Positions 6,879 through 22,514 of a stretch of DNA of 34,163 nucleotides are shown piece after piece. The notes under the pieces were generated by a model. The model worked only from the letters and a program-made list of their open reading frames with translations, was not told the origin of the DNA and did no database searches. Origin of the DNA: Actinomycetes bacterium (GTDB taxonomy: Bacteria; Actinomycetota; Acidimicrobiia; Acidimicrobiales; Poriferisodalaceae); contig JAAETH010000128.1 in NCBI GenBank assembly GCA_024228575.1, positions 1 through 34,163 of the forward strand, given 5' to 3'. A program made the translations under genes and the position numbers. How positions within the stretch are numbered: the first letter of the stretch is position 1; each line of letters starts with the position of its first letter.

Positions 6879-6951
6879 TGCGGCCCCCTCGCCCGGGTCA
6901 CCCCCACGGTTCCCCGGCAAACGTTGTCATTCTTGCTTGCCCGGCAGGTGT

Positions 6952-7001
6952 TGCGCCAAAGAGCCACGGCGACGGCTGCGCCAAAGAACCACGGCAACGG
7001 A
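6952..7001. repeat. Two tandem 25-bp direct repeats
   Basis: The unit TGCGCCAAAGARCCACGGCR followed by ACGGM occurs at 6952-6976 and again at 6977-7001, head to tail, with three differences. The pair lies in the 196-bp divergent spacer between the phosphohistidine-domain gene and the SCO6745-like gene, about 75 bp before the latter's start. It could be a pair of regulator binding sites or a simple slippage duplication. Confidence 0.7.
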
Positions 7002-7074
7002 GAGGAGCGAAAGCGACGACCGGTTCGAAGGCCGACCCAAACGGCCCTGTGAGCGCCCATGTAGGGTCCAATCC

Positions 7075-7851
7075 ATGGACTCACTCTCTCTCGCTCGCAA
7101 CATGCGTGGATCGATCGGCATGCTGGCGATGCACTGGCTGATGGCCCCTTCCACCAACGCCAAGGCGAAAGCCGCTGGGATGCCAGAAGGCATCGCCGGC
7201 TACGCGATCGGACGGCTTGGCGTGTTGGGCGATTGCCCGGTCGACAACGTCGTCGGGGCGGCGTTCTTCTGGCAACCCGACTACCTGGCAGCCCAGACCC
7301 GCGCCGGGCGGGCCGCGATGAGCCCATCAGAGGGAGCCACAATCTTCACCAGGATCTGCCAGGAATGGGGTGTCGACCACCTCGACGGCTTCGAGGGCAC
7401 CCTTCGTCTCGGCGAGCTGGCCCGACGAGTTGTCGACGCGGCCAGCCCCCTCGGAGCACCCATGTTCGCCGGCTGGCGCGACCAGCCACTGCCCGACCCC
7501 GGGCCCCAACAGACCATGCAGCTCGCCCAGACACTCCGCGAGCTCGGATTCTCCCGGTTCTGTACCGCTGTTCTGGCCGCCCAGATGAGCCCGCTCGAGG
7601 CCATCATGAGTGGCCCGACCGGGGCATGGAACGCCGAGATGTTCGGCTGGCCCCAACCCTTCCCCGACGGCGAGCCAATCGTCGAAGCTCGAACCAAGAT
7701 CGAGGAACACGCCAACCGCCTGCACGCCACCGATTTCGAAGTGTTCACCGATGAGGAACGAACCGAGTTCCGCGAACTCGCCAGGGCCGCACGCAACCAC
7801 GCCGGAACCAGGATGACCGCCGACTCGAGCGCCATGGCGCCGAGAAGCTGA
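7075..7851 (+). CDS. SCO6745-like (HTH_67) protein
   Basis: The 258-residue soluble protein resembles the actinobacterial SCO6745 family of uncharacterised proteins with predicted helix-turn-helix folds. The best-conserved part is near residues 40-85 (G-Y-A-I-G-R-L-G-V-L-G, then A-A-F-F-W-x-P-x-Y-L), which matches the family's R-x-x-P-L-G-x-V ... A-x-F-F-x-F-x-P block. Whether the family binds DNA is not established. ATG 7075 gives an N-terminus beginning MDSLSLARNM; an upstream extension to 6937 would read through the tandem repeats and looks non-coding. The nitroreductase fusion gene follows after 56 bp on the same strand, so the two may share a transcript. Confidence 0.55.
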   Translation: MDSLSLARNMRGSIGMLAMHWLMAPSTNAKAKAAGMPEGIAGYAIGRLGVLGDCPVDNVVGAAFFWQPDYLAAQTRAGRAAMSPSEGATIFTRICQEWGVDHLDGFEGTLRLGELARRVVDAASPLGAPMFAGWRDQPLPDPGPQQTMQLAQTLRELGFSRFCTAVLAAQMSPLEAIMSGPTGAWNAEMFGWPQPFPDGEPIVEARTKIEEHANRLHATDFEVFTDEERTEFRELARAARNHAGTRMTADSSAMAPRS

Positions 7852-7907
7852 CGACCCCTCCCAACGCCGGCACCGTTACACCCGAACACATCTCAAAGGA
7901 ACCGAAC

Positions 7908-9098
7908 ATGGACATCGACGTCGCCTCCGTCGACCAGGCCCTCATGACCACCCGAGCTGTTCGCCGGCGCCTCGACCTCGAACGGCCGGTCGATCGCGAG
8001 ATCATCCTCGACTGCATCGACATCGCAGAACAGGCCCCGTCTGGCGGCAACCAGGGCAGCCGACGCTGGATCGTCGTGGAGGACCAGCGGGTCAAGGACC
8101 GCATGTCCGAGATCTACATGGAGGCCGCAGGCACCTGGATGATCGAGACCCACGACCGCATCGCCGGCAGCGGGCATCCCCAGGAAAGGGTGATGGCTTC
8201 TGCCGCCCACCTCGCCAGACACCTCTCCGAAGTGCCCGCGATAGTTGTTCCGACCATCATCGGTGTTCACGACGGCAGTGGGCGGCCAGGCCTGTTCGAC
8301 TCGGTCATCCAGTCGGTGTGGAGCTTCTGCGTGGCGCTGCGGGCCAGGGGCCTCGGCACGGCGTGGACCACCGCTATCCTCGCCCGCCAGGAGGAGCTGG
8401 TCGAGCTGCTCGAGATCCCAGAGGGAATGACACCGATCGCAATGCTTCCCCTCGGCTGGATGAAAGGATCCAGCGTCAAGCTCGCACCTCGCCTGCCGGC
8501 CCGCGAGGTCACCTACTTCGACGGGTTCGCGCGAACGTGGGAGAGCGGCCCAAGCGACCCGCCCTGCCTCGCTGACGGACCCGGCACAGTGGTCGAGGTC
8601 GACATCAAGGCCCCCGTTGCCACCGTGTGGCCCTTTGTCACCGACATCGGCTTCGGAGCCGACTTCAGCGCAGAATTCACCGGCGCCCGCTGGGCCGACG
8701 GCCACGATGGCCCGGCTCAAGGGGCCCAGTTCATCGGCTCCAACACCCATCAGGCGATCGGCGAGTGGGAGGTCCCATGTTTCGTCGACCGCCACGAGCC
8801 CGAGCGAGAGTTCGGTTGGGTCACCGCTGACGCCGACAACCCGGGCGCCAGCTGGCGCTTCGAGCTCCAGCCAATCGCCGGGGCGACCCGTCTGCGCTAC
8901 CGACTGATCCTCGGACCCGGCCCCTCTGGCCTCTCCGCGGCGATCGCACAGCTGCCCGACAAGGAGCCGCGTATCCTCGCCCGCCGAATCGGCGAGCACA
9001 GGGCGAACATGCAACTCGTGGTCGACGGCATCAAGGTGGCAGCCGAAGCCGCCAGGCCCGACCGATCCCAGGGCGGCACCAGGGCGCCGCTGTCATAG
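7908..9098 (+). CDS. Nitroreductase-like domain fused to an SRPBCC domain
   Basis: The 396-residue protein has two domains. Residues 10-205 are nitroreductase-like: TTRAVRRRLD at the start, A-P-S-G-G-N-x-G at about 44-51 for FMN phosphate contact, and the dimer-forming S-V-W-S-F-C-V-A-L-R-A-R-G-L-G-T-A-W region. Residues 220-380 are an SRPBCC/polyketide-cyclase-like domain (V-E-V-D-I-K-A-P-V-A-T-V-W-P-F-V-T-D at its start, a long C-terminal helix I-x-x-x-R-x-N-M-Q-L-V-V-D-G-I-K). Nitroreductases use FMN and NAD(P)H to reduce nitro groups, quinones or enones; SRPBCC folds bind hydrophobic ligands. A fused substrate-binding module is a reasonable inference, but the substrate is unknown. AAAGGA precedes the ATG. 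Confidence 0.78.
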   Translation: MDIDVASVDQALMTTRAVRRRLDLERPVDREIILDCIDIAEQAPSGGNQGSRRWIVVEDQRVKDRMSEIYMEAAGTWMIETHDRIAGSGHPQERVMASAAHLARHLSEVPAIVVPTIIGVHDGSGRPGLFDSVIQSVWSFCVALRARGLGTAWTTAILARQEELVELLEIPEGMTPIAMLPLGWMKGSSVKLAPRLPAREVTYFDGFARTWESGPSDPPCLADGPGTVVEVDIKAPVATVWPFVTDIGFGADFSAEFTGARWADGHDGPAQGAQFIGSNTHQAIGEWEVPCFVDRHEPEREFGWVTADADNPGASWRFELQPIAGATRLRYRLILGPGPSGLSAAIAQLPDKEPRILARRIGEHRANMQLVVDGIKVAAEAARPDRSQGGTRAPLS

Positions 9099-9118
9099 AC
9101 CTCTGCGGATGGTTTGGC

Positions 9119-9913
9119 TCATCGGCCGTGGAACTCGGCGGGCCGCTTCTCGATGTAGCTCATGAGGCCCTCGCGGAAATCGTTCGTACGAAACAGCTGT
9201 AGCAAGGCGAGGAACTGGCGGTGCACATGGTCCTCGAGGTTCTCGCTCATGGCGTGACGCATCAGCCTCTTCGACGCACGAACGGCCAGCGGAGCATTGG
9301 CGGCGATCTCCTGGGCGAGCGCAGCCGTTGCCGCGGGCAGATCGTCGGGTTCCACAACCTGGCTGACCAGTCCCAGATCCGCGGCATCGGCAGCCGTGAG
9401 TGTGCGAGCCGTGTAGAGCAGCTCGGCGGCCTTCGACCAGCCCACGATCCGCGGCAACAGCCAGGTGCCGCCACTCTCTGGGACCAGGCCGCGAGCGGTG
9501 TAGGCAGCGGAGAGTTTGGCGGTGCTGGCTGCGATCCGGATATCGCAGCCGAGCGCCAGGTCCATCCCGTAGCCGGCCGCGCCACCGTTGAGCGCGGCGA
9601 TGGTCGGGGTGTCGATCTTGTGGAGCACAACAGGTGGGGCGTCGCGCAGGTTGAACTCGCCGTTGCCGCCCGATCCGCCGTCGCCGCCGATGCCGTCACC
9701 CGATGCCGCGGCGGCAACGTCGAGTCCGGCGCACCAGGCACGTCCGTTGCCGGTGATGACGATGACCCTGACCGTCGGATCGGCATCGGCCTCTAGCAAA
9801 CATGTCGACATGGCACCGAGCATCCGCGCTGTGATGGTGTTCATCTTGTCGGGCCGGTTGAAGGTGATCGTGGCGACATGCCCATCGATCGTGTAGAGCA
9901 GTTCGTCGGTCAC
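9119..9913 (-). CDS. Enoyl-CoA hydratase/isomerase family (crotonase fold)
   Basis: The 264-residue protein has the crotonase layout: N-R-P-D-K-M-N-T-I near the N-terminus, the first oxyanion-hole loop GNGRAWCAGLDV, the second loop A-L-N-G-G-A-A-G-Y-G-M-D-L-A-L-G-C-D-I-R-I-A, and a glutamate in LVPESGGTW at the usual catalytic position. Only one of the two classical hydratase glutamates is evident, so isomerase or other crotonase chemistry is possible. A glycine-rich insert (about 12 residues, SGDGIGGDGGSGG) follows the first loop. GTG 9913 is favoured because CAGGGAGA lies just upstream; ATG 9934 would put that site inside the gene. The role is probably in beta-oxidation of an acyl-CoA. Confidence 0.85.
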   Translation of the reverse strand: MTDELLYTIDGHVATITFNRPDKMNTITARMLGAMSTCLLEADADPTVRVIVITGNGRAWCAGLDVAAAASGDGIGGDGGSGGNGEFNLRDAPPVVLHKIDTPTIAALNGGAAGYGMDLALGCDIRIAASTAKLSAAYTARGLVPESGGTWLLPRIVGWSKAAELLYTARTLTAADAADLGLVSQVVEPDDLPAATAALAQEIAANAPLAVRASKRLMRHAMSENLEDHVHRQFLALLQLFRTNDFREGLMSYIEKRPAEFHGR

Positions 9914-9991
9914 GTATTGTCTCCCTGGTGGCATATCGGAATCGCGACTGAACTGTAGTCGCCGACCGAACGAGGCTCCGGGGCTGTGGCC

Positions 9992-10900
9992 TCAGCCCAC
10001 GTCGAACCAGGCCGTCTCTGGGCCCGAACGAACACGTCCCGAAGTAGGGGGCGCGAAGTGGCTGCCGAGCACAAGGGTCGAGGAGTCCACCAACCGGTCG
10101 ATCAACCTGCGTCGAGTCGCTCCCGCAGCCATCGAGTCGAAGTCGGCGTAGGAGGCCGAGATCTCTGGGAGAGCGAACTGCACCGGTGAATGGAACGAGT
10201 CACCCGTGATCAGCGCTCGCTCACCGGCCGACTCGATCATCACACAGACGTGGCCGGGACTGTGGCCGGCCGACGGCACCAAACACAGGTTGTCGTCAAT
10301 CCGGTGATCGGAGTCGACGGCATCGAGCACCCCACACTCGACAAGAGGGTCGATGCTCGATTCCATGACCTCCATGGAGTCGTCGGCACGGGTTCCCGAG
10401 AGCTCGTCCTCACTGACGAGGTAACGAGCGCTGGGAAACGTCGGAACCCATTCGCCGCCGACTCGTTCGGTGTTCCAACCGACGTGGTCGAAGTGCATGT
10501 GTGTGCACACCACGAAGTCCACGGCGTCGAGACCACCTGGAATCGCAGCGGCGAGCCGTTCGCCGAACCCGGAGTCTCCGGGAAGCCTGCGTTGGGTGTG
10601 TTCGGCGATGCAGGTATCGACCACCACGGTGTTGTCGCCGCTGAACACCACGAAGCTGTGTATCGACAGCAACATCTGCCCCTCCTCGGCGAAGAACGGG
10701 CTCACCCACTCGCCACACGAGTCGAGCAATTCCTGCGACAGGTCGGGCAAGAGATATCGCGGCGACATCTCGATCACGCTCTCCTCGACGCGAACGACCT
10801 CGACATCGCCGACTCGCCAGCGCAGCGGGCTGGCCGGATCCTCGTGGTGAACGACGAGCTGACGGTCTCTCGACGCACGACTCTCCGACAGCTCAGACAT
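9992..10900 (-). CDS. MBL-fold metallo-hydrolase
   Basis: The 302-residue protein has the metallo-beta-lactamase-fold zinc motif HMHFDH at 134-139, a further histidine pair in SAGHSPGH, the bridging aspartate in ITGDSFHS and a C-terminal histidine in GSHFAPP. These are the ligands of a dinuclear site. The layout with a long N-terminal segment before the first strands resembles AHL-lactonase-like and other MBL hydrolases rather than true beta-lactamases. The substrate (lactone, thioester or ester) cannot be told. The gene lies on the minus strand, upstream of enoyl-CoA hydratase, with about 78 bp between, and is divergent from the P450 across a 189-bp spacer. Confidence 0.8.
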   Translation of the reverse strand: MSELSESRASRDRQLVVHHEDPASPLRWRVGDVEVVRVEESVIEMSPRYLLPDLSQELLDSCGEWVSPFFAEEGQMLLSIHSFVVFSGDNTVVVDTCIAEHTQRRLPGDSGFGERLAAAIPGGLDAVDFVVCTHMHFDHVGWNTERVGGEWVPTFPSARYLVSEDELSGTRADDSMEVMESSIDPLVECGVLDAVDSDHRIDDNLCLVPSAGHSPGHVCVMIESAGERALITGDSFHSPVQFALPEISASYADFDSMAAGATRRRLIDRLVDSSTLVLGSHFAPPTSGRVRSGPETAWFDVG

Positions 10901-11017
10901 CGTCGACCAACCTCATACGATCGGTGACGTTATCGGGTGGGTGCCGTGGCAGCAGCCTTTGGGGTCTCGCCGCCGAGGATACCGACCCCTCAGAGATGAC
11001 GGCCGCCGAACGATAGT

Positions 11018-12624: not shown

Positions 12625-13815
12625 GTGCTTCAAGACGTCAACCTCCCGTTCGGCCTCGACGAGTACCGCAGCCGCCTCGCAAAAACACGGGTTGCCATGG
12701 CCGAACGTGGCATCGAAGTGTTGTTTGTGTCCGACCCATCCAACATGTGCTGGCTGACCGGATACGACGCATGGTCGTTCTACACATTCCAGGGAGTCAT
12801 CGTCAGCCTCGAGGACGACCCCATCTACTGGGGTCGCAACATGGACACCCAGGCGGCGAGGCGTACAACCTGGCTCGACGAGGACCACATCGTTCCCTAC
12901 CCCGACAACTATGTACAGAACCCCGAGCATCACCCCATGCAGCACCTTGCAGAGGTGCTGAACGGCCGGGGTATGTCCAACTCTCGCATCGGAGTCGAGG
13001 CGGACAACTACTACTACTCGGCCAAGGCCGACCAGTCCCTACGCACCTCTCTGGGTCGCGACGACCTCATCGATGTCACCGGGCTCGTGAACTGGCAACG
13101 AGCGGTCAAGTCAGCCCACGAGATCCAGTACATGAGGATCGCCGGCTCGATCCTCGAACTCGTCTACGAACACATCGGCAACGTGATCCGTCCCGGCATG
13201 CGCAAGAACGATCTGGTGGCCGAGATCCTCCACGCTTCAATCACCGGCACACCCGAACACGGCGGCGACTATGCAGCGATCGTCCCCCTCCTCCCCACCG
13301 GTGCCGATGCGACAGCGTCACATCTCACATGGAACGACGCTCCGATGGAAAAAGGTGCCGGCACCTTCCTCGAACTCGCCGGGTGTTTCCGCCGATACCA
13401 CGCGCCGCTGTGTCGGTCGTTCTTCCTGGGCACTCCCCCGCCAGAAGTCGTCAACGCCGAGGCGGCTCTCGTCGAGGCGCTCAGTGCCGGTATCGACGTT
13501 GCCAGATCGGGGAACACCGCCGCAGATGTCGCAAATGCGCTCGCCTCCGTCCTTGCCAAGTACGGCATCGACCGCGGAGGGGCTCGGTGTGGTTATCCGA
13601 TCGGGCTCAGCTATCCGCCCGATTGGGGTGAGCGCACCATCAGCCTCCGCCCAGAGGACACCACCGTCCTCGAGCCGGGGATGACGTTCCACTTCATGCC
13701 TGGGCTCTGGATGCAGGACTGGGGTCTGGAGATCACCGAAACGATCCTGATCACCGAGTCGGGTCCCGCCGAGTGTCTTCTCGACGTCGACCGCTCGGTG
13801 ATGGTCTTCGACTGA
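12625..13815 (+). CDS. doeA: DoeA/EutD-type ectoine hydrolase family protein (creatinase fold, M24-like)
   Basis: The 396-residue protein has an N-terminal creatinase domain with P-S-N-M-C-W-L-T-G-Y-D-A-W-S-F-Y at 38-53, a signature of the DoeA/EutD family, and a C-terminal pita-bread domain. In place of the metal ligands of true M24 peptidases it has a creatinase-like set: H233 (SHLTW), E250 (FLELAG), H356 (HFMPG) and E372 (ITETI). Known DoeA/EutD opens the ectoine ring to N-acetyl-diaminobutyrate. The methyltransferase gene follows 159 bp later. The deacetylase DoeB/EutE that should complete the pathway is not in the window, so the substrate may be ectoine or a related cyclic or amidine compound. 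The start is GTG 12625, with a modest AGGT upstream. Confidence 0.68.
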   Translation: MLQDVNLPFGLDEYRSRLAKTRVAMAERGIEVLFVSDPSNMCWLTGYDAWSFYTFQGVIVSLEDDPIYWGRNMDTQAARRTTWLDEDHIVPYPDNYVQNPEHHPMQHLAEVLNGRGMSNSRIGVEADNYYYSAKADQSLRTSLGRDDLIDVTGLVNWQRAVKSAHEIQYMRIAGSILELVYEHIGNVIRPGMRKNDLVAEILHASITGTPEHGGDYAAIVPLLPTGADATASHLTWNDAPMEKGAGTFLELAGCFRRYHAPLCRSFFLGTPPPEVVNAEAALVEALSAGIDVARSGNTAADVANALASVLAKYGIDRGGARCGYPIGLSYPPDWGERTISLRPEDTTVLEPGMTFHFMPGLWMQDWGLEITETILITESGPAECLLDVDRSVMVFD

Positions 13816-13974
13816 CGTCGACGTACCGGCTCCGAAGCAACAATCGTCGATCTCGACATCACCGGGGGACGACGAGCGTTGATGCAACGAGTAGAGGTCA
13901 CCGCCAATGGACTTCCTACTCTGACGCGACCAACACACTTGGACAATCCTGAGCCGAACGATCGGAGTCAGACC

Positions 13975-15141
13975 ATGGACATCACACCACGAGAACGCGT
14001 CCTCATGGCCCTCGAACACGAGGCACCCGATCGGCCGCCGATAATCCTCGGAACCAGCAACGCCACCGGGCTGAAGATGCAGACCTACCGGCGACTCAAG
14101 GCGCTGCTCGGCATCGAGGCTCCCGACGAGTACCTCTACGGCTGGCCCGAGCTGGGCACCGCCGCAATCGACGAGGAGACGATGTCACGCCTGCACTCCG
14201 ATGTGCGGGGTGTGCTCGACCTCGAACCGGCAAACGTGCTCGAACGCAACCGGACACGCGAACCCCACAGCGACTACATCGATTCTTGGGGTTCGGGCGC
14301 CCGAGAGGTGAAACCCGACGAGTGGTTCCCCATGGTCCATCCGCTGGCCGGGGCCACCACCATCGAGGAGATCGAGGCCCACGACTGGCCCGAGATGTCG
14401 GACCCGACCCGCGTCGCTCACGTCTGCGCCCAAGCTGAGCAGCTGGCAGCGGACAACCAGTACGCGATCATGGCGACACCTTGGCTGCTGTTCCCACTCG
14501 AGCGGGCATTCGCCATGCAGGGCATGGACACCTTCCTCATGAACATGGCGTTGTACCCCGACTTCACCGAAGCACTTCTCTGGAAACTCCAGGACGTCTG
14601 CAAGCAGCTGATGGAACCGTTCCTCGCAGCGCTGGGGCCCAACGTCGACATGATCAAGATCGGCGACGATCTCGGCACTCAGGAGAGCCTGCTGATGTCG
14701 CCCGACATGTATCGAAGGGTGCTCAAGCCGATCCACGCCGATTGGGTCGAGTTCATCAGGGCTCACACCGATGCCAAGGTCTTCTTCCACACCGACGGCG
14801 ACGTGTTCCCCCTCATCGACGACTTCGTGGAGATGGGCATCGACATCTTGAACCCGATCCAGACATCGGCTGGAAAGATGTCAAATATCGACGAACTTCG
14901 TGACCGGTACGGCTCCAAGATCGTGTTCTGCGGGGCCATCGACACCCAGCGCATCTTGCCCCACGGCACCCCCGACGAGGTTCGAGCCGAGGTACACCGA
15001 GTCATCGACATCCTCGGACAAGCGGGCGGGTACATGGTTTCGTCGGTTCACACGATCATGGACGACGTGCCGGCCGAGAACGTGCTTGCCATGGTCGATG
15101 CTGTCGAGGACTACGGTCGAAGCAGAAACAGGTCGCACTGA
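13975..15141 (+). CDS. UroD-family corrinoid methyltransferase
   Basis: The 388-residue protein belongs to the uroporphyrinogen-decarboxylase-like superfamily, in the MtaA/MtbA/CmuA-like methyltransferase branch rather than heme biosynthesis. It starts T-P-R-E-R-V-L-M-A-L, has a central D-M-I-K-I-G-D-D-L-G-T-Q motif (225-236), the FFHTDGDV loop (270-277) and I-V-F-C-G-A-I-D-T-Q (316-325). The zinc site of well-known members uses H-x-C with a later Cys; here the first motif is H272-x-D274, with C319 later. The next gene encodes the cognate corrinoid protein, so this one likely moves a methyl group to or from cob(I)alamin. The methyl donor is unknown. ATG 13975 is preceded by CGGAG. Confidence 0.8.
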   Translation: MDITPRERVLMALEHEAPDRPPIILGTSNATGLKMQTYRRLKALLGIEAPDEYLYGWPELGTAAIDEETMSRLHSDVRGVLDLEPANVLERNRTREPHSDYIDSWGSGAREVKPDEWFPMVHPLAGATTIEEIEAHDWPEMSDPTRVAHVCAQAEQLAADNQYAIMATPWLLFPLERAFAMQGMDTFLMNMALYPDFTEALLWKLQDVCKQLMEPFLAALGPNVDMIKIGDDLGTQESLLMSPDMYRRVLKPIHADWVEFIRAHTDAKVFFHTDGDVFPLIDDFVEMGIDILNPIQTSAGKMSNIDELRDRYGSKIVFCGAIDTQRILPHGTPDEVRAEVHRVIDILGQAGGYMVSSVHTIMDDVPAENVLAMVDAVEDYGRSRNRSH

Positions 15142-15173
15142 CAAGGCGACCCAGAGCAAGAAACACATCATCG

Positions 15174-15818
15174 ATGACAACAGACAACCTTCTCGACTCG
15201 TTGTACGACGCCATCGTCAGAGGCGATGCCGAAACCGCCGCGGCCGACACCGGCGCTGCCCTCGAAGCGAACACACCTCCGCTGACAGTGTTGTTCGACT
15301 CGATGATTCCAGCTCTCGAAGAGGTCGGCTCGATGTTCGAGTCAGGCCAGATCTTCCTTCCCGAGATGCTCGTCTCCGGCCGCGCGATGCAGGCCGGGAT
15401 GGACCTCATCCGTCCCCATCTCGCCGATGAATCGGCAGCCAGGGCCGGGACATTTGTGATGGGGACCGTCGCCGGCGACATCCACGACATAGGCAAGAAC
15501 CTGTGCAACGTCATGCTGGAGGGTGGCGGCTTCAAGGTCGTCGATCTCGGAGTCAACGTGCCGGCGTCGGACTTCGTGGCGGCCATCGTCGAACACCAGC
15601 CCGATGCCGTTGGTATCAGTGCCTTCCTCACCACGACGATGCCAGAGGTCGCGACAACCATCGCTGCCATCACCGAGGCCGGGCTTCGCGACAGCACAAA
15701 GATCCTGGTCGGCGGAGCACCGATCAATCAGCAATACGCCGACGATGTCGGTGCCGACGGATATGCCCCCAACGCTGCGGCCGCGGTTCGTACCACCAAG
15801 TCCCTGCTGGGTATCTAG
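15174..15818 (+). CDS. Methyltransferase cognate corrinoid protein
   Basis: The 214-residue protein has the two-domain layout of MtaC/MtbC/MttC proteins and the MetH cobalamin module. Residues 1-88 form a helical cap (the M-F-E-S-G-Q-I-F-L-P-E-M motif near 54-65). Residues 90-214 form a Rossmann-like B12 domain with the cobalt-ligating D102-x-H104-x-x-G107 (GDIHDIGKN), V-G-I-S-A-F-L-T-T-T and V-G-G-A-P-I-N followed by G-A-D-G-Y-A-P-N-A. The protein holds cobalamin base-off/His-on and carries the methyl group between two methyltransferases. It starts 32 bp after the UroD-type gene, so the pair is probably co-transcribed. Neither a second, tetrahydrofolate-linked methyltransferase nor a reductive activase for Co(II) is in the window. 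Confidence 0.88.
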   Translation: MTTDNLLDSLYDAIVRGDAETAAADTGAALEANTPPLTVLFDSMIPALEEVGSMFESGQIFLPEMLVSGRAMQAGMDLIRPHLADESAARAGTFVMGTVAGDIHDIGKNLCNVMLEGGGFKVVDLGVNVPASDFVAAIVEHQPDAVGISAFLTTTMPEVATTIAAITEAGLRDSTKILVGGAPINQQYADDVGADGYAPNAAAAVRTTKSLLGI

Positions 15819-15835
15819 GAACGCGGACTCGGCAG

Positions 15836-15901
15836 CTGGCTCTGGCAAGTCTTCCGCGGGAGCCAGAAGGTGTCCGCGCCCACATGACTCACACGGACAC
15901 C
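15836..15901. terminator. Two tandem hairpins between convergent genes
   Basis: CTGGCTC at 15836-15842 pairs with GAGCCAG at 15860-15866, and GGTGTCCG at 15869-15876 pairs with CGGACACC at 15894-15901. Each has a 17-base loop. They fill the 98-bp gap between the corrinoid-protein gene and the oppositely oriented acyl-CoA dehydrogenase gene. No T-run follows either, so termination is likely but unproven. Confidence 0.45.
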
Positions 15902-15916
15902 AGAGTTGGTTGGCTG

Positions 15917-17161
15917 TCAGGTGTTTTGCGGGAGATCCCTGAACGGTGTGTCCTTCGACGGTCCGGGTTCTTTGGGAAGTCCCAGCGCCCGCTCGCCGAC
16001 GACGTTGCGCTGAACCTCATCGCTGCCGCCATAGATGGCGGGTGCGGGCGAGAACAGCGCCAACTCCTGAATCGAACCACCCGTCGCCGAGTCGGAGCCG
16101 GTGATGGTTGCGTCTGCACCCAGGATCCGACAACCGACCTCTCTTGCGAGGCGGACGGTGTCGCTGTTGCGGATCTTCGCAAGATTGCCCTCACCACCGG
16201 TCGCCGCGTTGCCGGACTTCATGCGGCCGACGTGCAGGCTCGCCACCTCGACCAGTGTGTGCAGTTTCGCCAAATCCTGGCGGATCGTCGGGTCGTCGAG
16301 TTTCCCCCGGTCGCCTGCCATACGTATCAGCGACCGGACCCGGCCACGCCCGATGGTCCCTTCGCCCATGGCATGGGGCACGTGTTTGAACGAACCAGCT
16401 GAACGGTCGAGATCGCCCGCGACGGAGCCCGGTTGGGCAGAACTGGGTGCCGCAACGCCGGCACCGCCGATACCACTTCGTTCGACCATCAACGTGGTGT
16501 TGGCCACGCGCCAGCCGTCGCCGATGTCGCCGATGATGTTGGCGTGAGGTACCCGTGCCTCATCGATGAACACCTCGTTGAACAGTGCCCTGCCCGTCAT
16601 CTCGCGAAGCGGCCGCACCTCGACCCCGTCCTGGCGCATGGGGAAGGCGAAGTAGGAGATGCCACGGTGTTTTGGGGCATCGGGATCTGTGCGCGCGATG
16701 AGGATTCCGTAGTCGGCCCATTGCCCGAACGAGGTCCAGACCTTCTGGCCTGTGATGACCCACTCGTCCCCGTCGCGTTCGGCTCGGGTCTGGAGCCCGG
16801 CCAGATCGGATCCGGCCGCCGGCTCGGAGAACAGCTGGCACCAGCCGTGCTGCCCGTCGAAGATGCTCGGCAAAAGCCGCTGCTTCAGCTCGTCATCACC
16901 ATGAGCGATGAGGGTCGGCGCCGCGAGCATCATTCCCAGACCACCCGGAGGGCCGAGGGCATCGCGATCGGTCATGGCGGCGACCAGCTCCACGGTTCTG
17001 GCCCTGGACCAGCCCAGCCCCCAGGGTTCTGGGAGCATCGGGTGGGTCAACTTCTCATCGGCCAGTCGCTGCCACCAATCGGCGACGGTCGCCTCGGGAT
17101 CCCAGTTCGCTTCGACCCAGGCTTCGACATCGAGGGACGGATCGGGGGTCATGTTCGTCAC
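15917..17161 (-). CDS. Acyl-CoA dehydrogenase
   Basis: The 414-residue flavoprotein has standard acyl-CoA dehydrogenase motifs: C-Q-L-F-S-E-P-A-A-G-S-D-L-A (FAD and substrate contact), W-V-I-T-G-Q-K-V-W-T-S, R-x-G-x-G-G-A-G-V in the middle, and the C-terminal I-Y-G-G-S-D-E-V-Q-R-N-V-V-G-E-R-A-L-G-L-P segment. It would introduce a double bond alpha-beta to a CoA thioester and pass electrons to ETF. GTG 17161 is chosen because GAGGTGAGAG lies 2 bases upstream of GCC-GTG; ATG 17152 is the alternative. The gene is divergent from the second EutD-like gene across 115 bp and stands alone on its strand inside the cluster. Confidence 0.9.
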   Translation of the reverse strand: MTNMTPDPSLDVEAWVEANWDPEATVADWWQRLADEKLTHPMLPEPWGLGWSRARTVELVAAMTDRDALGPPGGLGMMLAAPTLIAHGDDELKQRLLPSIFDGQHGWCQLFSEPAAGSDLAGLQTRAERDGDEWVITGQKVWTSFGQWADYGILIARTDPDAPKHRGISYFAFPMRQDGVEVRPLREMTGRALFNEVFIDEARVPHANIIGDIGDGWRVANTTLMVERSGIGGAGVAAPSSAQPGSVAGDLDRSAGSFKHVPHAMGEGTIGRGRVRSLIRMAGDRGKLDDPTIRQDLAKLHTLVEVASLHVGRMKSGNAATGGEGNLAKIRNSDTVRLAREVGCRILGADATITGSDSATGGSIQELALFSPAPAIYGGSDEVQRNVVGERALGLPKEPGPSKDTPFRDLPQNT

Positions 17162-17276
17162 GGCTCTCACCTCGCTCGCAACGAGACTGGCACAGTTTGC
17201 AGTTCCGGCGCGAATGGTGCGAAGAAGAGAACAGAGAGGGATCACCACAGGTGTCCGTATCTGCCAGGCTGAGCGG

Positions 17277-18428
17277 ATGCCAGTGCACTTCAGCGACGAC
17301 GAGATGACCGAACGAGCAACCCGGGCCAGCGCCGCGTTGGCCAGTGCGGGCATGGACGCTGTCCTGTTGTTCAAACAGGAGTCGATGTACTGGCTGACGG
17401 GCTACGACACGTTCGGTTTCTCGATGTTCCAGTGCCTGGTGCTCACCAGCGACGGACCGATGGCGTTGCTGACCCGTATGCCCGACCGTGGAACCGCTCG
17501 GTACACCTCAAACCTCTCCGACATCCGTATCTGGACCGATGTCGAGGGCATGAACCCGGCACAGGACCTGGTCGCGATGCTCGACGACCTGGGTTTGCGG
17601 GGATCTCACGTCGGAATCGAGATCGACAGCTACGGCCTCAAGGCCTCGAACTGGCTGCTGCTCAGCGCCGCGCTCGAAGGTTTCTGCACATGGACCGACG
17701 CATCGAGCCTGGTGCAGGAACTGCGACGCACCAAGAGCCCCGCCGAGCTGGCCTACATCCGCCGCGCCGCCGAACTGGCCGACGATGCATGGGACGCAGC
17801 GGTCGCTCGCGCCGGTGCCGGGGTGTCGGAGGCCGACGTACTCGCCGACATGCAGGATGTCATCTTGAGGGGCGGGGGCGACTACGCGGGCAACGAGATC
17901 ATCATCGGCTCTGGCCCGGCCGCTCTCATGGTGCGCTACACGTCTGGGCGGCGAACCCTCGAAACGAACGACCAGCTGACCCTCGAGTGGTGTGGTGTCG
18001 AACGTCGTTATCACGCTGCCATGATGCGCACCCTGCTGGTGGGAGACCCGGGGGCCGAACACATCGCCATGCACACCGCTTGTGAAGAGGCCCTGTTGGC
18101 GTGCGAAGCCGCTATCCGACCGGGCTCCACCCTTGGCGAGGTGTTCGATGTGCACGCAGCCGTATTCGACGACGCCGGGTTTCGGCGCCACCGCATGAAC
18201 GCCTGCGGCTACGGCATGGGTGCGGTATACGCACCGATCTGGGTCGACTGGCCCATGCTCTACAGCGGCAATCCGCTCACCTTCGACACGAACCAGGTCT
18301 ACTTCCTGCACATGATCCTGCTGAACCTCGACGACGGCCTGGCCATGAACCTCGGCCACTCGGTGGTCGTCACCGAAGATGGGTGCGAACGTCTCAGCCG
18401 ATCGTCGCTCGATCTCACGGTCCGATGA
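17277..18428 (+). CDS. EutD-like M24/creatinase-fold protein, divergent active site
   Basis: The 383-residue protein is a paralogue of the gene at 12625. It shares the signature M-Y-W-L-T-G-Y-D-T-F-G-F-S-M-F-Q (37-52) and the same two-domain length. The catalytic positions differ. E237 is kept (LTLEWCG), but the histidine of SHLTW is replaced within VRYTSG (about R220-S223), and the late glutamate of ITET falls at G360-H361 (NLGHSVV). It may therefore have another activity or serve as a partner subunit. It overlaps the EutA gene by ATGA, so the two are translationally coupled; eut operons of proteobacteria likewise hold eutD with eutA. Family is clear, function open. Confidence 0.7.
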   Translation: MPVHFSDDEMTERATRASAALASAGMDAVLLFKQESMYWLTGYDTFGFSMFQCLVLTSDGPMALLTRMPDRGTARYTSNLSDIRIWTDVEGMNPAQDLVAMLDDLGLRGSHVGIEIDSYGLKASNWLLLSAALEGFCTWTDASSLVQELRRTKSPAELAYIRRAAELADDAWDAAVARAGAGVSEADVLADMQDVILRGGGDYAGNEIIIGSGPAALMVRYTSGRRTLETNDQLTLEWCGVERRYHAAMMRTLLVGDPGAEHIAMHTACEEALLACEAAIRPGSTLGEVFDVHAAVFDDAGFRRHRMNACGYGMGAVYAPIWVDWPMLYSGNPLTFDTNQVYFLHMILLNLDDGLAMNLGHSVVVTEDGCERLSRSSLDLTVR

Positions 18429-19165
18429 GGCCGGGCATCACCTTCGACGAAGGTCGTTTCCCCAGGGCAAAACTCGGTTTCGTGTTGTTGTCGAGCGAGC
18501 AGACGATCGAGAGCGACATGATGCGGTGGGCACCCGACGGTGTCGGTATCCACTTCTCGAGGGCAACCAACCCAGACCAGATAACGGCAGACGGTCTCGC
18601 GGGCATGCTCGATTCGATCGGGCCGGCCACCGCCGTCCTGGCACCAGACGCAGGTCTCGACGTCGTCTGCTACGCCTGCACCAGTGGCAGTGTTGTCATG
18701 GGGGAGAGTGCCGTTTGTACACAACTCAGAGCGGGCAACCCGAACGCCATCGCTACGACCCTCATCTCCGGGGTGTTCGCAGCCCTCGACGCGTTGGACG
18801 CGAAACACATCGTGGTCGGAACCCCCTACCTCGACGAGGTGAACCAGATCGAACACGACTACATGGTCGAACACGGCTACGACGTCTTGTCGTTGGAGGG
18901 GTTGAACATCACCAACGACTCCGACATGGTTCGCGTCACACCCGAATACATCCGCGACTTTGCCATCGGCCTCGACCGCCCCGAGGCCGACGCCGTGTTC
19001 ATCAGCTGTGGAGCGCTGCGCACACTCGACGTCATCGACGAGATCGAGCAGGCGATCGGCAAACCGTGCGTGGCCAGCAACCAGGCGATGTTGTGGCACT
19101 GCCTCCGCCTGGCAGGCATCGACGATCAGATCGACGGGCTGGGTCGCCTGTTTCGCGACCACTGA
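18425..19165 (+). CDS. eutA: EutA-like protein (Asp/Glu racemase, maleate isomerase superfamily)
   Basis: The 246-residue protein matches the ectoine-utilisation EutA pattern throughout. It starts L-G-F-V-L-L-S-S-E-Q-T-I-E-S-D, has Y-A-C-T-S-G-S-V-V-M-G (Cys85), T-P-Y-L-D-E-V-N, F-I-S-C-G-A-L-R (Cys195) and ends with P-C-V-A-S-N-Q-A-M-L-W-H-C-L-R-L-A-G-I-D-D. The two cysteines are the expected catalytic pair of the superfamily (Asp/Glu racemases, maleate isomerase, arylmalonate decarboxylase). The exact reaction of EutA is not settled; a role in stereochemistry or isomerisation of diaminobutyrate-type intermediates has been supposed. It is coupled by ATGA overlap to the preceding EutD-like gene. 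Confidence 0.75.
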   Translation: MRPGITFDEGRFPRAKLGFVLLSSEQTIESDMMRWAPDGVGIHFSRATNPDQITADGLAGMLDSIGPATAVLAPDAGLDVVCYACTSGSVVMGESAVCTQLRAGNPNAIATTLISGVFAALDALDAKHIVVGTPYLDEVNQIEHDYMVEHGYDVLSLEGLNITNDSDMVRVTPEYIRDFAIGLDRPEADAVFISCGALRTLDVIDEIEQAIGKPCVASNQAMLWHCLRLAGIDDQIDGLGRLFRDH

Positions 19166-19197
19166 TCCACCGGCGCCGAATCCAGATCGGAGCTATT

Positions 19198-19221
19198 CTG
19201 ACGGCGAACCAGCACCGTCAG
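19198..19221. promoter_or_regulatory. Inverted repeat before the HD-domain gene
   Basis: CTGACGG (19198-19204) and CCGTCAG (19215-19221) form a 7-bp perfect dyad with a 10-base spacer in the 65-bp gap before the HD-domain gene. It abuts the AGGGGG ribosome binding site, and TATTCT at 19194-19199 could be a -10 box. It might be an operator or an mRNA hairpin affecting translation. Confidence 0.4.
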
Positions 19222-19230
19222 GGGGCAGAC

Positions 19231-19803
19231 ATGTGGCGAGCCAAGTGGATCCGGATGGAAGACGGGACCCCGGAGGAATTCGCGAAGATCATCGAGATGG
19301 AGACGCAGTTCAACAGCAATCTCGTCGACCGTCTCATCACCCATCTCAAACTGCTCAGCGACGACTGGGGCGGGTACAAGATGAGCCGCTATGACCATTG
19401 CCTGCAGTCGGCGACCCGCGCTTTCGACGACGGAGCAGACGAAGAGATGGTCGTCGCTGCCCTGCTACACGACATCGGCGACACCGTGGCGCCCTACAAC
19501 CACGGCGAGCTGGCCGCCGCAATCCTGAGGCCCTATGTGTCGGAACGGGTGCGCTGGATCGTCGAACACCATTGCATCTTCCAGGGTTACTACTACAACC
19601 ACTACCTCGGAGGCGACCGCAACGCACGCGACCGGTTCCGAGACCACCCGTGGTACGACGACTGTGTCTATTTCTGCCACACGTACGACCAGAACGCTTT
19701 CGACCCCGACTACGACACAAAACCAATCGAGTTCTTCGAGCCGATGATGCGGCGGGTATTCGGCGGCGAAGCAGCACACCTGGAACTCAACCTCGGCCAG
19801 TGA
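19231..19803 (+). CDS. HD-domain protein with PhnZ/TmpB-like ligand spacing
   Basis: The 190-residue protein has HD-superfamily metal ligands: H56 (YDHCLQ), H80-D81 (LLHD), H91 (NHGE), H113/H114 and D153 (TYDQ). The 24-residue spacing from H56 to H80 and the text around it (L-Q-S-A ... G-A-D-E-E-M-V-V-A-A-L-L-H-D) resemble PhnZ/TmpB, the mixed-valent diiron oxygenases that cleave C-P bonds, more than ordinary phosphohydrolases. The Tyr and Glu that PhnZ carries 10 and 7 residues before its first histidine are here W46 and Y49, so phosphonate cleavage is not implied. It follows EutA by 65 bp and may be part of the same catabolic unit. ATG 19231 follows AGGGGGCAGAC. Confidence 0.62.
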   Translation: MWRAKWIRMEDGTPEEFAKIIEMETQFNSNLVDRLITHLKLLSDDWGGYKMSRYDHCLQSATRAFDDGADEEMVVAALLHDIGDTVAPYNHGELAAAILRPYVSERVRWIVEHHCIFQGYYYNHYLGGDRNARDRFRDHPWYDDCVYFCHTYDQNAFDPDYDTKPIEFFEPMMRRVFGGEAAHLELNLGQ

Positions 19804-19976: not shown

Positions 19977-22514
19977 TCACAGCCCGAAGACGTTCAGGTA
20001 CTCCTTGACGGTCGCTTCGGAGAAAGCGGTTTCGCAAGGGATCCCGTTGCCGTCCGCATCCATCAGGTCTGGTGCTCCCTCGAGCATCCAGTAGGCGACC
20101 GCTCGTTCGTAGCCCGAGTAGTCGTCCGGCAGGTTCAGATCGGCACACCTCAGGCCGGTTGGCTCGCCGATAGCGGCGTCGAGGATGTGCTCGATGTCCT
20201 CAACGAACACGGTCTCGCAGGGGATCCCGTTGCCGTCGGCATCCATTCGTTCTGGTGCCCCCTCGGCAAGCCAGTAGGGCACCGCGACCCAGGCCCCGTG
20301 ACCCATCGCGGCGAGATCACGGCAGAACAGGCCCGACTCCAGGCCGGTGATGTTGCGCGCCGCCGGCGGCTCACCCGCCAGAAACACCTGCTGCCAATCG
20401 GGGCGTTGTGGATTTGTCGCAGCATCGAGCTGGGCTCGCCACTCGTCGTCGGTGAGCCGTTGCCCCGAGTTCCAGAACTCGTAATAGGAATACACACCTC
20501 CGGCTGCGACCTGGAGGTTGCCGTCGTCGTCGGGTACCAGAACGAAGATTTTGTCGACATAACCCGTGCCGAGCTCGAGAGCAGCGTCGGCGTTGCTCAT
20601 GATGTCGGCGATCAGGGCGGCGTGTGAGTCGGGCCCGGTCTCCCAGTCGAGATCTGCATCGGAAGTCCAGATCCAGAAGCTCTCGAGCAGGCCACCGATG
20701 AACCTGAGCCGATCGTTGTCGTCCGCGCCGATCGGCAACCCATCGAGCTCGTCGCCGGCGATGCCACCGAGCCATGAATAGAAGGACTCGAGTTCGTCGA
20801 GGAGTTCGACGTACTCGTCGGGCAACAGTCCGCGGCTCTGCATCCCAGTGTTCATCAGCTCGGTGATGGCCGCCAGACGTTCGAAAACGACCGGCTCGGG
20901 TTCGACCCAATGACGGGGCGGATCGGGAGGTTCCTCGAACCCGGCTTCGGCCACCGCCTGTTTTGTGTAGAGGATCGTGTCGTGTTTGAGTTCGGTGTAG
21001 GACCCGAGACCGGTCTGGTGGGACTTGGCATCCCAGGCATCGGTCTGCATGAACTGCGGATACTGCTCGCCGTGTGGTGACCACATCGGCCGCACTGCCC
21101 ACAACCAGGCGTCGTAGACCGTGGCGCCCCAGTCGCCGTCGGAGCGAGAGGCGATCAATTCGCGCATGGCCGCCATCTGGTCGTCGTAGCCGTCGAAGTC
21201 GGTGTTCCCGGCTGCTTGTTGTGTGGCGAGCGCCCAGTCCGACCCGAACGCCGCAGCGAGATCGAGCGGCGACGCCTCGAACCGTCCGGCCACGTTGGGG
21301 GCCACCAACTGGTCGAGGATGAACGAGTCGACCACCAGACGCGAACCCATGATCCGCATCGAGGCAGCCTCGGGGTTGATCTCCACCGGTCGCATTGACA
21401 GCAACGCCTGCCCGACGCTGTCGACGACCGACGGATCGGCGAACACCGACATGTCGGACCAGCCCGATGGAACAACCTGTTCGACCACCGCTCCCAGCTC
21501 GAACGGCGTGTAGTCGTCTGCGGCTCCGACGAGCCACGAGGTGGGCTCGTAGATGAGGCGCCACGACTCGACGACAGCCGGATCGGTCAACAAGACCTTG
21601 CTCGCCATGATCCCGAGCAGCATCCCTTCGTCGACCAGGAAGGCGTTGTTGCCGAGGTGCGACATGGCTCGGAAATACTTCTCGAGACTCTCGCTCCTGG
21701 TGTAGTGACCGCGTGGGCGAAACAGCGTGTAGTCGATCCGGCGGGTGATGAACGGCGACCCCGCATCACCTCCGGTGGTGGGCGAGACAGCGACCGCGTC
21801 TGCTGCCAGGACCAGCGCCACTTCTGCCGATGCCAGGGGACCGATCGGGCTGACATCCAAGTCGAGCAGTGCGGCCGCGACCTCGTAGTACTGGGTCACA
21901 CGGTTCGCGGCCTCTGCCAGCTCGGTGCCAACCAGGTCGGCCTCTTGTCGCCGAGCCAGCTCGACCAGACGCTCCACCATGTCCTCCAGCTCGGGCAGCA
22001 GCGACTGCTGCTCGACCTCTCGAAGGATCTTGTCGAAGGCGAGGTGCCAGACGTGATAGGCGGTATCGGTGGTCAGGAAGACCGGGTACGCCTCATACGC
22101 GGCGCTCTCGTAGATGTGGTGGAAGTGACGGGTAGTGCCGGGGACCACGACGAAACCGTTCTCGAGCAGCTGCTGTTGGGCACCGTTGGCCTCGAGGGAT
22201 GCCGCCACCCACGGAGAGATCTCGACGCCTTCCAGATCGACGGGCAGGCCGGGCCCTTCGTATGCCGGGCCGTCACGCGGCGGCACTGGGGAGAGACTGC
22301 CGAAATTCATCCGGGCACCGTCGGGAACCGTGACCGAGGGCTGGGTGGTAGGCGACTCCGTTGTGCTCGACGCGCCGGATGCTCCGGTTGTCGACGTGAC
22401 CGCAGGAGCCGAGGTCTGGGTCCCGCTAGATGTGGTCGACGCCGATTCATCGCCAGAGGTGCACCCCGCCGCGATCAACAGCAACACCGCCACAGGGGCA
22501 AACAGGGCTCTCAT
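19977..22514 (-). CDS. DUF3160 lipoprotein with two C-terminal Excalibur-like calcium motifs
   Basis: The 845-residue secreted protein has a lipoprotein signal (hydrophobic core, then A-A-G-C with Cys18), a Ser/Thr-rich linker (19-63) and a large domain (about 90-720) that looks like DUF3160, with F-V-V-V-P-G, F-L-T-T-D-T-A-Y-H-V-W-H near its start and later L-G-S-Y-T-E-L-K-H-D-T. Residues 724-786 and 787-845 are tandem copies of a short module, each with a Cys, a Y-W-x-x-E-G-A-P segment and a D-A-D-G-N-G-I-P-C-E loop. The loop fits the DxDxDGxxCE calcium motif of Excalibur domains. No enzymatic role is known for DUF3160. GGAGGTAGCG precedes ATG 22514. It follows the CapA-like gene by 75 bp, perhaps in one operon. 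Confidence 0.78.
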   Translation of the reverse strand: MRALFAPVAVLLLIAAGCTSGDESASTTSSGTQTSAPAVTSTTGASGASSTTESPTTQPSVTVPDGARMNFGSLSPVPPRDGPAYEGPGLPVDLEGVEISPWVAASLEANGAQQQLLENGFVVVPGTTRHFHHIYESAAYEAYPVFLTTDTAYHVWHLAFDKILREVEQQSLLPELEDMVERLVELARRQEADLVGTELAEAANRVTQYYEVAAALLDLDVSPIGPLASAEVALVLAADAVAVSPTTGGDAGSPFITRRIDYTLFRPRGHYTRSESLEKYFRAMSHLGNNAFLVDEGMLLGIMASKVLLTDPAVVESWRLIYEPTSWLVGAADDYTPFELGAVVEQVVPSGWSDMSVFADPSVVDSVGQALLSMRPVEINPEAASMRIMGSRLVVDSFILDQLVAPNVAGRFEASPLDLAAAFGSDWALATQQAAGNTDFDGYDDQMAAMRELIASRSDGDWGATVYDAWLWAVRPMWSPHGEQYPQFMQTDAWDAKSHQTGLGSYTELKHDTILYTKQAVAEAGFEEPPDPPRHWVEPEPVVFERLAAITELMNTGMQSRGLLPDEYVELLDELESFYSWLGGIAGDELDGLPIGADDNDRLRFIGGLLESFWIWTSDADLDWETGPDSHAALIADIMSNADAALELGTGYVDKIFVLVPDDDGNLQVAAGGVYSYYEFWNSGQRLTDDEWRAQLDAATNPQRPDWQQVFLAGEPPAARNITGLESGLFCRDLAAMGHGAWVAVPYWLAEGAPERMDADGNGIPCETVFVEDIEHILDAAIGEPTGLRCADLNLPDDYSGYERAVAYWMLEGAPDLMDADGNGIPCETAFSEATVKEYLNVFGL
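19980..20345 (-). repeat. Tandem duplication of an Excalibur-like module within the DUF3160 gene
   Basis: The two ~60-codon copies (about 20157-20345 and 19980-20156) are closely similar at DNA level around their calcium loops and the preceding Y-W-x-x-E-G-A-P codons, indicating duplication within the gene. Confidence 0.7.

Follow-up and report, generated by a model that had tools for sequence, protein, structure and literature searches.

A UroD-type methyltransferase and corrinoid protein encoded among EutD- and EutA-like genes in a Poriferisodalaceae genome, a possible demethylation route for a nitrogenous solute

The window analyzed here is a whole stretch of 34,163 nucleotides, contig JAAETH010000128.1 (C128) of an Actinomycetota genome of the family Poriferisodalaceae (GCA_024228575.1; 6.15 Mb in 960 contigs, completeness 96.9%). 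Within 7.2 kb, it carries genes for two hydrolase-type proteins of the M24 family (M24a and M24b), a UroD-superfamily methyltransferase (hereafter UroD), a corrinoid protein (Corr), an acyl-CoA dehydrogenase, a EutA-like protein, and an HD-domain protein (Table 1). All seven are open reading frames lying approximately where the initial annotation had placed them, and the families that it named are confirmed by scores above the Pfam cut-offs. The Pfam run took UroD on the frame from 13879, HD on the frame from 19258, and the acyl-CoA dehydrogenase on a longer frame extending to 17374; the dehydrogenase start at 17152 is our own choice from the sequence. The G+C contents of the cluster genes (60 to 65%) are similar to that of the remainder of the window (64%).

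Table 1. Coordinates and family matches of the cluster genes and their upstream neighbor in the window
Feature	Position	Strand	Families, scores, and motifs
Cytochrome P450	11090..12412	+	PF00067, 78.5 bits; upstream neighbor, unit membership doubtful
M24a, EutD/DoeA clade	12625..13815	+	M24 and Creatinase_N; TIGR02993, 565.2 bits (cut-off 613); 517.8 bits to PDB 6twk
UroD-superfamily methyltransferase (MTI type)	13975..15141	+	PF01208, 92.1 bits; H272-T-D274-G motif
Corr, corrinoid protein	15174..15818	+	PF02310 and PF02607; DxHxxG motif, D102-I-H-D-I-G
Acyl-CoA dehydrogenase	15917..17152	-	PF02770, PF00441, PF02771
M24b, second M24 protein	17277..18428	+	M24 and Creatinase_N; PF00557, 103.6 bits
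EutA-like racemase/isomerase-type protein	18425..19165	+	PF17645 (Amdase/EutA-like), 105.9 bits; TIGR02990, 195.7 bits (cut-off 318)
HD protein, PhnZ/TmpB-related	19231..19803	+	PF01966, 28.1 bits

The plus-strand genes fall into two groups, M24a-UroD-Corr and M24b-EutA-HD. UroD and Corr are spaced by 32 bases, the M24b and EutA-like genes overlap by 4 bases, and the HD gene follows 65 bases further on. The acyl-CoA dehydrogenase and M24b genes are divergent, with 124 bases between them, and the cytochrome P450 gene ends 212 bases before M24a.

Judged by family and motif, UroD and Corr are a real corrinoid pair, predicted to move a methyl group from its substrate onto Co(I). The PF01208 match of UroD compares with a cut-off of 23.9 bits, and Corr, directly beside it, carries the DxHxxG motif. 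For the predicted UroD model (pLDDT 91.4), the top Foldseek match is a Methanosarcina methyltransferase (4ay7, E 3.5e-14); in VIA-align, HemE structures (Z 28.2) stand level with or slightly above the methyltransferase 4ay8 (Z 27.1), so that decarboxylase and methyltransferase are not separable by fold alone. A role for UroD as a second HemE is ruled out, as it lacks the HemE motif RQAGR, and a proper HemE with RQAGR (401 bits) is encoded on contig C595.

UroD is 24.6% identical to CmuC and has HxDG where CmuC has HxCG. In an alignment covering 32 of 42 close sequences (that of the window and those of the loci L007 to L047 described below), the histidine occurs in all 32 rows and the aspartate in 31. 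As stated in a preprint (PMC10418091), S-methyltransferases of this superfamily hold zinc through His-Cys-Cys, and the O-methyltransferases have carboxylate or noncoordinating substitutions. By this rule, a zinc site with HxD rather than HxC suggests a hard donor atom, such that the methyl group may come from oxygen or perhaps from nitrogen. Zinc is not required by all members of the superfamily, CdmB being described as lacking it in PMC13222342.

The two M24 proteins differ in their affinities. M24a groups with Sinorhizobium meliloti DoeA (support 100/100, 57% identity) in a clade that also takes in proteins of three other genomes (G269, G290, and G092), and it scores about 517 bits against the EutD crystal structures 6twk and 6twj; it falls below the TIGR02993 cut-off, which its orthologue in G269 passes (626.7 bits). 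M24b, only 27% identical to M24a, belongs to a separate clade, in which it is joined by M24 proteins of actinobacteria and rhizobia; the two genes first described as EutD-like are not alike. By eye, both lack the full metal-ligand set of the metal-type M24 protein at locus L143. The predicted model of M24b is poor (pLDDT 72, from 7 sequences). Among 396 genomes of the phylum, 6 (its own counted) have relatives of M24b at E 1e-60 or better. Orthologues of M24b are present in G269 (72% identity) and G825 (73%). The genome contains 11 M24 matches overall. At two loci in other genomes (L141 and L142), the M24a orthologue lies beside M20-like, sulfoacetaldehyde acetyltransferase (in L141, 1008 bits over a cut-off of 676), Fe-ADH-like, and glutamine-synthetase-like genes, and L141 additionally holds a hydantoinase gene and a short EutA remnant.

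The EutA-like protein does not reach the cut-off of the EutA equivalog model TIGR02990. It is 41% identical to S. meliloti EutA and 54 to 57% identical to rhizobial and Paraburkholderia plasmid proteins, the rhizobial ones including "arylmalonate decarboxylases." A tree parts it from S. meliloti EutA (support 89/91, with long branches flagged); this split is moderately supported, and by its sequence the protein is not EutA proper. Its cysteines C85 (CTS) and C195 (SCG) presumably occupy the positions used by racemase-type members. The genome contains six EutA-family matches. Three loci elsewhere (L143, 7425-10221; L146, 9062-11894; L187, 9100-11917) share a recurring trio of a metal-type M24 gene, a PhyH oxygenase gene, and an EutA-like gene, with a class V aminotransferase-like gene close by; PhyH was recognized by Pfam in L143 and L146, the trio of L187 was found by BLAST, and by eye the trio is also present in L008 and L145.

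The HD protein shares metal-ligand positions with the PhnZ/TmpB oxygenases, all six being kept in an alignment with PhnZ (4n6w/4mlm), the last in a weak second segment. It does not share PhnZ Y24 and E27, which read W46 and Y49, and its scores against curated models are far below cut-off (44.2 versus 214.6 bits and 38.1 versus 300 bits). These residues and scores rule it out as the sign of a phosphonate pathway; the HD protein is probably metal dependent and acts on a different substrate. With 158 of 395 genomes in the class having a member of the family, the HD gene is weak evidence for the oxidative step once proposed for it; M24 and EutA labels were absent from the 10 HD regions fetched from other genomes, and HD is a weak candidate for a specific part of the unit. 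In one of these regions, a 4.5-kb contig (L127, G408:C280), a 77% identical HD orthologue lies beside a different UroD-type gene.

A second cluster of similar makeup exists in the same genome. Contig C390 (L125) carries at 5631-10937, within 5.3 kb, an EutA-family gene (EutA'), a frame-broken M24 gene, another M24 gene, and a divergent UroD'-Corr' pair. Identities to the window proteins are 49% for EutA', 46% for Corr', and 30 to 31% for UroD' (31% over 185 residues), and among 390 genomes of the class, UroD' turned up in its own only. A 92-amino-acid frame between the two M24 genes looked by eye like an amine-oxidase end, but gave no family match and only a BLAST E value of 2.2, and it is therefore not assigned to a family.

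The two UroD-Corr pairs of the genome each have an EutA-family gene close by, at distances of about 2.6 and 2.9 kb, and a random point in the genome would have about a 0.7% chance of lying within 3.5 kb of one of the six EutA-family matches. Because the window pair prompted the search, only the C390 pair is an independent test of this proximity, and it does lie close to an EutA-family gene.

Searching genome contigs with UroD gave 48 loci, of which 41 (L007 to L047) match at 55 to 85% over most of the protein. Eight are actinobacterial (L007 to L014, six titled Acidimicrobiales or Acidimicrobiia and two Actinomycetes), and in all eight, Corr follows UroD. The other 33 (L015 to L047) come from Chloroflexota, Spirochaetes, Rhodobacteraceae, and further groups, and their orthologues are kept at 55 to 70%. 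In 32 of the 33, the fetched flank shows no corrinoid gene, and the protein seems mostly to stand alone there, though several of these contigs are short. Flanks extended up to 10 kb and less at contig ends (upstream, only 1.0 kb for L013 and 4.8 kb for L014), and the simple gene caller used on relatives' contigs was rough in GC-rich DNA, missing some genes and calling some antisense frames.

EutA-like and M24 genes accompany UroD in the fetched flank of 1 of these 41 loci. At this locus (L008, OFTM10), UroD (82% identical) and Corr (74%) are preceded by genes for an M24 protein of another, metal-type clade, an EutA-like protein (36%), and, by eye, a PhyH-like protein. An EutA-family gene is present in 5 of the 16 genomes reached through UroD loci (3 of 8 behind L007 to L014, two of the three being the genomes of L007 and L011, and 2 of 8 others); the frequency in the UroD-Corr genomes, 3 of 8, compares with 20 of 295 in a sample of the class that excludes the window's own genome (one-sided Fisher test, P = 0.017, on small numbers). 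The linkage of UroD-Corr with EutA and M24 genes is more than coincidence, but it is not tight. The initial annotation had treated the whole as a chance neighborhood if related genomes never kept the methyltransferase pair next to eut-like genes, and both C390 and L008 do keep UroD-Corr by M24 and EutA genes. Conservation of all seven genes as one unit is not supported, given the single case among 41 loci and two genomes, G269 and G825, in which the M24b-EutA pair has no UroD-Corr in the fetched stretch.

Relatives of the EutA and M24 genes also lie near demethylation genes of other types. Ten plasmid regions with EutA hits were viewed, a nonrandom choice from the best-scoring 25 of 525 records with incomplete gene tables. 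M24 genes ("Xaa-Pro peptidase") are annotated in eight, a sarcosine-oxidase subunit in five, purU or folD in two (two of the sarcosine oxidase regions also have purU), and hydantoinase A/B in one; UroD or corrinoid proteins are annotated in none of the ten. The link is looser in rhizobial regions, where the sarcosine oxidase genes are kilobases from EutA. Roseovarius pelagicus and Aminobacter sp. SR38 have a tight M24-EutA-SoxB-SoxD arrangement, with EutA-SoxB gaps of 22 and 4 bases. They resemble the window in an EutA of 47 to 48% identity, an adjoining M24 gene, and an adjoining demethylation system; unlike the window, their system is an oxidative, folate-linked sarcosine oxidase, with an Ehu-type transporter and regulators, and their M24 is neither M24a nor M24b but of the C390 type. 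The C390 proteins are 55 to 56% (EutA') and 42 to 44% (intact M24) identical to these genes preceding sarcosine oxidase. In a deltaproteobacterial genome (L188, G833:C67, 2179-7934), an EutA-like gene lies near genes for MttB, a flavin oxidoreductase, and a corrinoid protein. In marine Deltaproteobacteria, according to PMC8318568, ectoine-type transporters are encoded close to a methyltransferase gene. Since EutA/M24 relatives occur near sarcosine oxidase or folate one-carbon genes in 5 of the 10 regions, solute demethylation is the likeliest theme, and a general link between demethylation and M24/EutA genes, as seen in C390, L008, the two tight sarcosine oxidase cases, and L188, is somewhat more probable than its absence. 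A literature search on the homarine pathway yielded nothing useful.

Some of the partners that the initial annotation reported as absent are missing only locally. The genome has a single RACo match, on contig C539; the genes beside it encode a corrinoid protein, a DUF1638 protein, and two methyltransferases, one MttB-like and one pterin-binding (PRK07535, 353.5 over 259). EutE, not found among the cluster proteins, is encoded on C187 (435.5 over a cut-off of 402.7) near another M24 gene and an EutA-family gene. For EutB and EutC, no match in the whole genome assembly (completeness 96.9%) exceeds its cut-off (best scores, 177.5/413.35 and 140.7/471.65). In principle, a methyl group on Corr can reach folate, on the assumption that the C539 proteins serve Corr.

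We tentatively read the locus as an island of catabolic genes acting on a small zwitterionic solute that bears a methyl group. Methylated compounds of the amidine or ureide type are the best fit for this substrate, which might resemble ectoine or creatine or be a methylated cyclic amidine. That the seven genes form one pathway is likewise conceivable, if short of probable. In such a pathway, M24a and M24b would hydrolyze C-N bonds of a ring or of an amidine or guanidine group, and the EutA-like protein would invert or isomerize an intermediate. UroD would transfer a methyl group from oxygen or nitrogen to Co(I) of Corr, the C539 RACo would reactivate the cobalt, and the C539 pterin methyltransferase would hand the methyl group to tetrahydrofolate; an oxygenase step might also take part. 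UroD-Corr would then be the nonoxidative counterpart of the sarcosine oxidase found beside related EutA/M24 genes of Proteobacteria. The earlier proposal of a cluster for demethylating a methylated solute is partly borne out, in its corrinoid pair and its theme.

A serious possibility, although not a probable one, is that no common pathway exists and that two or three independent modules happen to be neighbors: an ectoine hydrolase, a UroD-Corr pair with an unrelated substrate, and an M24b-EutA pair. A number of observations count against a single pathway, several of them in favor of such modules. The acyl-CoA dehydrogenase gene, on the opposite strand, splits the cluster; no transporter or regulator that would point to a substrate is present in it; and M24a could simply be an ectoine hydrolase. 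M24 and EutA neighbors are absent from the fetched flanks of seven of the eight other actinobacterial UroD-Corr loci, UroD was found in none of the 98 other genomes when 99 were sampled across the genus, family, and order, and only one of the 33 nonactinobacterial loci has a corrinoid neighbor (L039, where Corr precedes UroD). The M24b-EutA orthologues of G269 and G825 lie beside hydantoinase genes. G825, which is the genome of L011, holds both modules apart, with M24b (73%), EutA (72%), and hydantoinase genes together next to molybdenum-hydroxylase subunits, and the M24b-type gene regions of Rhizobium leguminosarum and Shinella plasmids have no annotated EutA or demethylation gene nearby. The UroD-Corr orthologues themselves have very different neighbors: in L007 (6408-10001), carbamate-kinase-, YgeW-, and YgeY-like genes lie directly upstream (one carbamate kinase model over cut-off, the YgeW and YgeY models below), and in L014 (2410-11657), the pair is near formate-tetrahydrofolate ligase and formate-dehydrogenase-like genes (the latter by eye). 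Against a mere juxtaposition stand C390 and L008, which repeat the pairing with different orthologues, and the small fraction of the genome lying that close to an EutA-family match.

A purine or ureide link of UroD was considered and dropped. It had been suggested by the YgeW/YgeY-like genes of L007 and, by eye, by ureide-type genes close to L020 and nucleoside-type ABC genes around some Anaerolineae loci; the other loci inspected, which did not take in part of L020 to L033, have unrelated neighbors.

Unlikely, and less probable than independent modules, is a divergent ectoine or 5-hydroxyectoine pathway, in which M24a would be EutD, EutE would come from C187, the EutA-like protein, M24b, HD, and P450 would replace EutABC, and the methyltransferase pair would handle one-carbon units from elsewhere. 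The EutA-to-EutE pathway of Ruegeria pomeroyi and Halomonas is set out in PMC5924519 and PMC13188858, the latter also reporting putative ectoine clusters in Thermodesulfobacteriota that usually have two eutD homologues and lack eutE. The window shares with the eut/doe clusters of S. meliloti (L183), R. pomeroyi, and Halomonas an EutD-clade hydrolase and an EutA-family protein, here with EutE elsewhere in the genome. The clustering of M24a with DoeA, the setting of EutE on C187, and the genome of L007, in which an EutD over cut-off (625) adjoins an EutA-family gene on another contig, agree with such a pathway, as do the reported clusters with two eutD homologues. The window departs from these clusters in having no EutB or EutC over cut-off, an EutA-like protein that the tree separates from S. 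meliloti EutA, an additional M24 protein of another kind, and a methyltransferase pair in between, and neither EnuR nor an ectoine transporter was seen in the cluster; moreover, ectoine has no N- or O-methyl group to remove. The initial judgment that this is not a plain ectoine pathway is borne out by the below-cut-off EutA-like protein and the lack of EutB and EutC.

Quite improbable, and the weakest of the alternatives, is that the substrates are methylated guanidino compounds or hydantoins (creatine, creatinine, or N-methylhydantoin), with UroD-Corr demethylating the nitrogen of sarcosine or of the ring. In favor of this, M24b orthologues from a different family within the phylum lie by a DAO-type oxidase gene on 3 of 5 other-genome contigs (1 confirmed by Pfam, 2 by eye) and near an arginase-family gene on 2 of 5 (1 by Pfam, 1 by eye), hydantoinase A/B genes neighbor EutA-family genes in G269 (gene order M24a, PhyH, M24b, hydantoinase, and an EutA split by a frame change), G825, and Haladaptatus and an EutA remnant in G290, and the L141 M24 protein has a creatinase-like GINTDGAHNP stretch. 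Against it, that protein has no creatinase-named NCBIfam match, the window cluster has no creatininase or hydantoinase gene, and the HxD site favors an oxygen donor by the rule in PMC10418091.

Returning to the catabolic reading, its gene order, an MTI followed by a corrinoid protein, is that of the UroD-superfamily corrinoid demethylases MtvB, OdmB, VdmB, MtoB, CdmB, and CmuA as presented in PMC13222342, where an activase and an MTII also belong to these systems. Unlike in those systems, the activase and MTII genes are here on another contig; the sequence comparison was with CmuC only. The more specific form of this reading is an undescribed pathway in which UroD and a corrinoid protein nonoxidatively demethylate a methylated cyclic amidine or ureide solute, replacing the sarcosine oxidase step, and which was reached twice in one genome with distantly related UroDs; this we consider rather unlikely. 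If true, it would provide a concrete candidate substrate class for a UroD-superfamily methyltransferase that lacks an assigned one, tie B12-dependent demethylation to nitrogenous solute turnover, and account for EutA-like and extra EutD-like genes outside ectoine pathways. In the open-licence literature searched, we found no publication joining B12-dependent UroD demethylation with EutA/M24 genes.

Downstream of the cluster, the minus strand of the window (19977-22514) encodes a secreted-looking protein of 845 amino acids with DADGNGIPCE stretches repeated at its C-terminal end.

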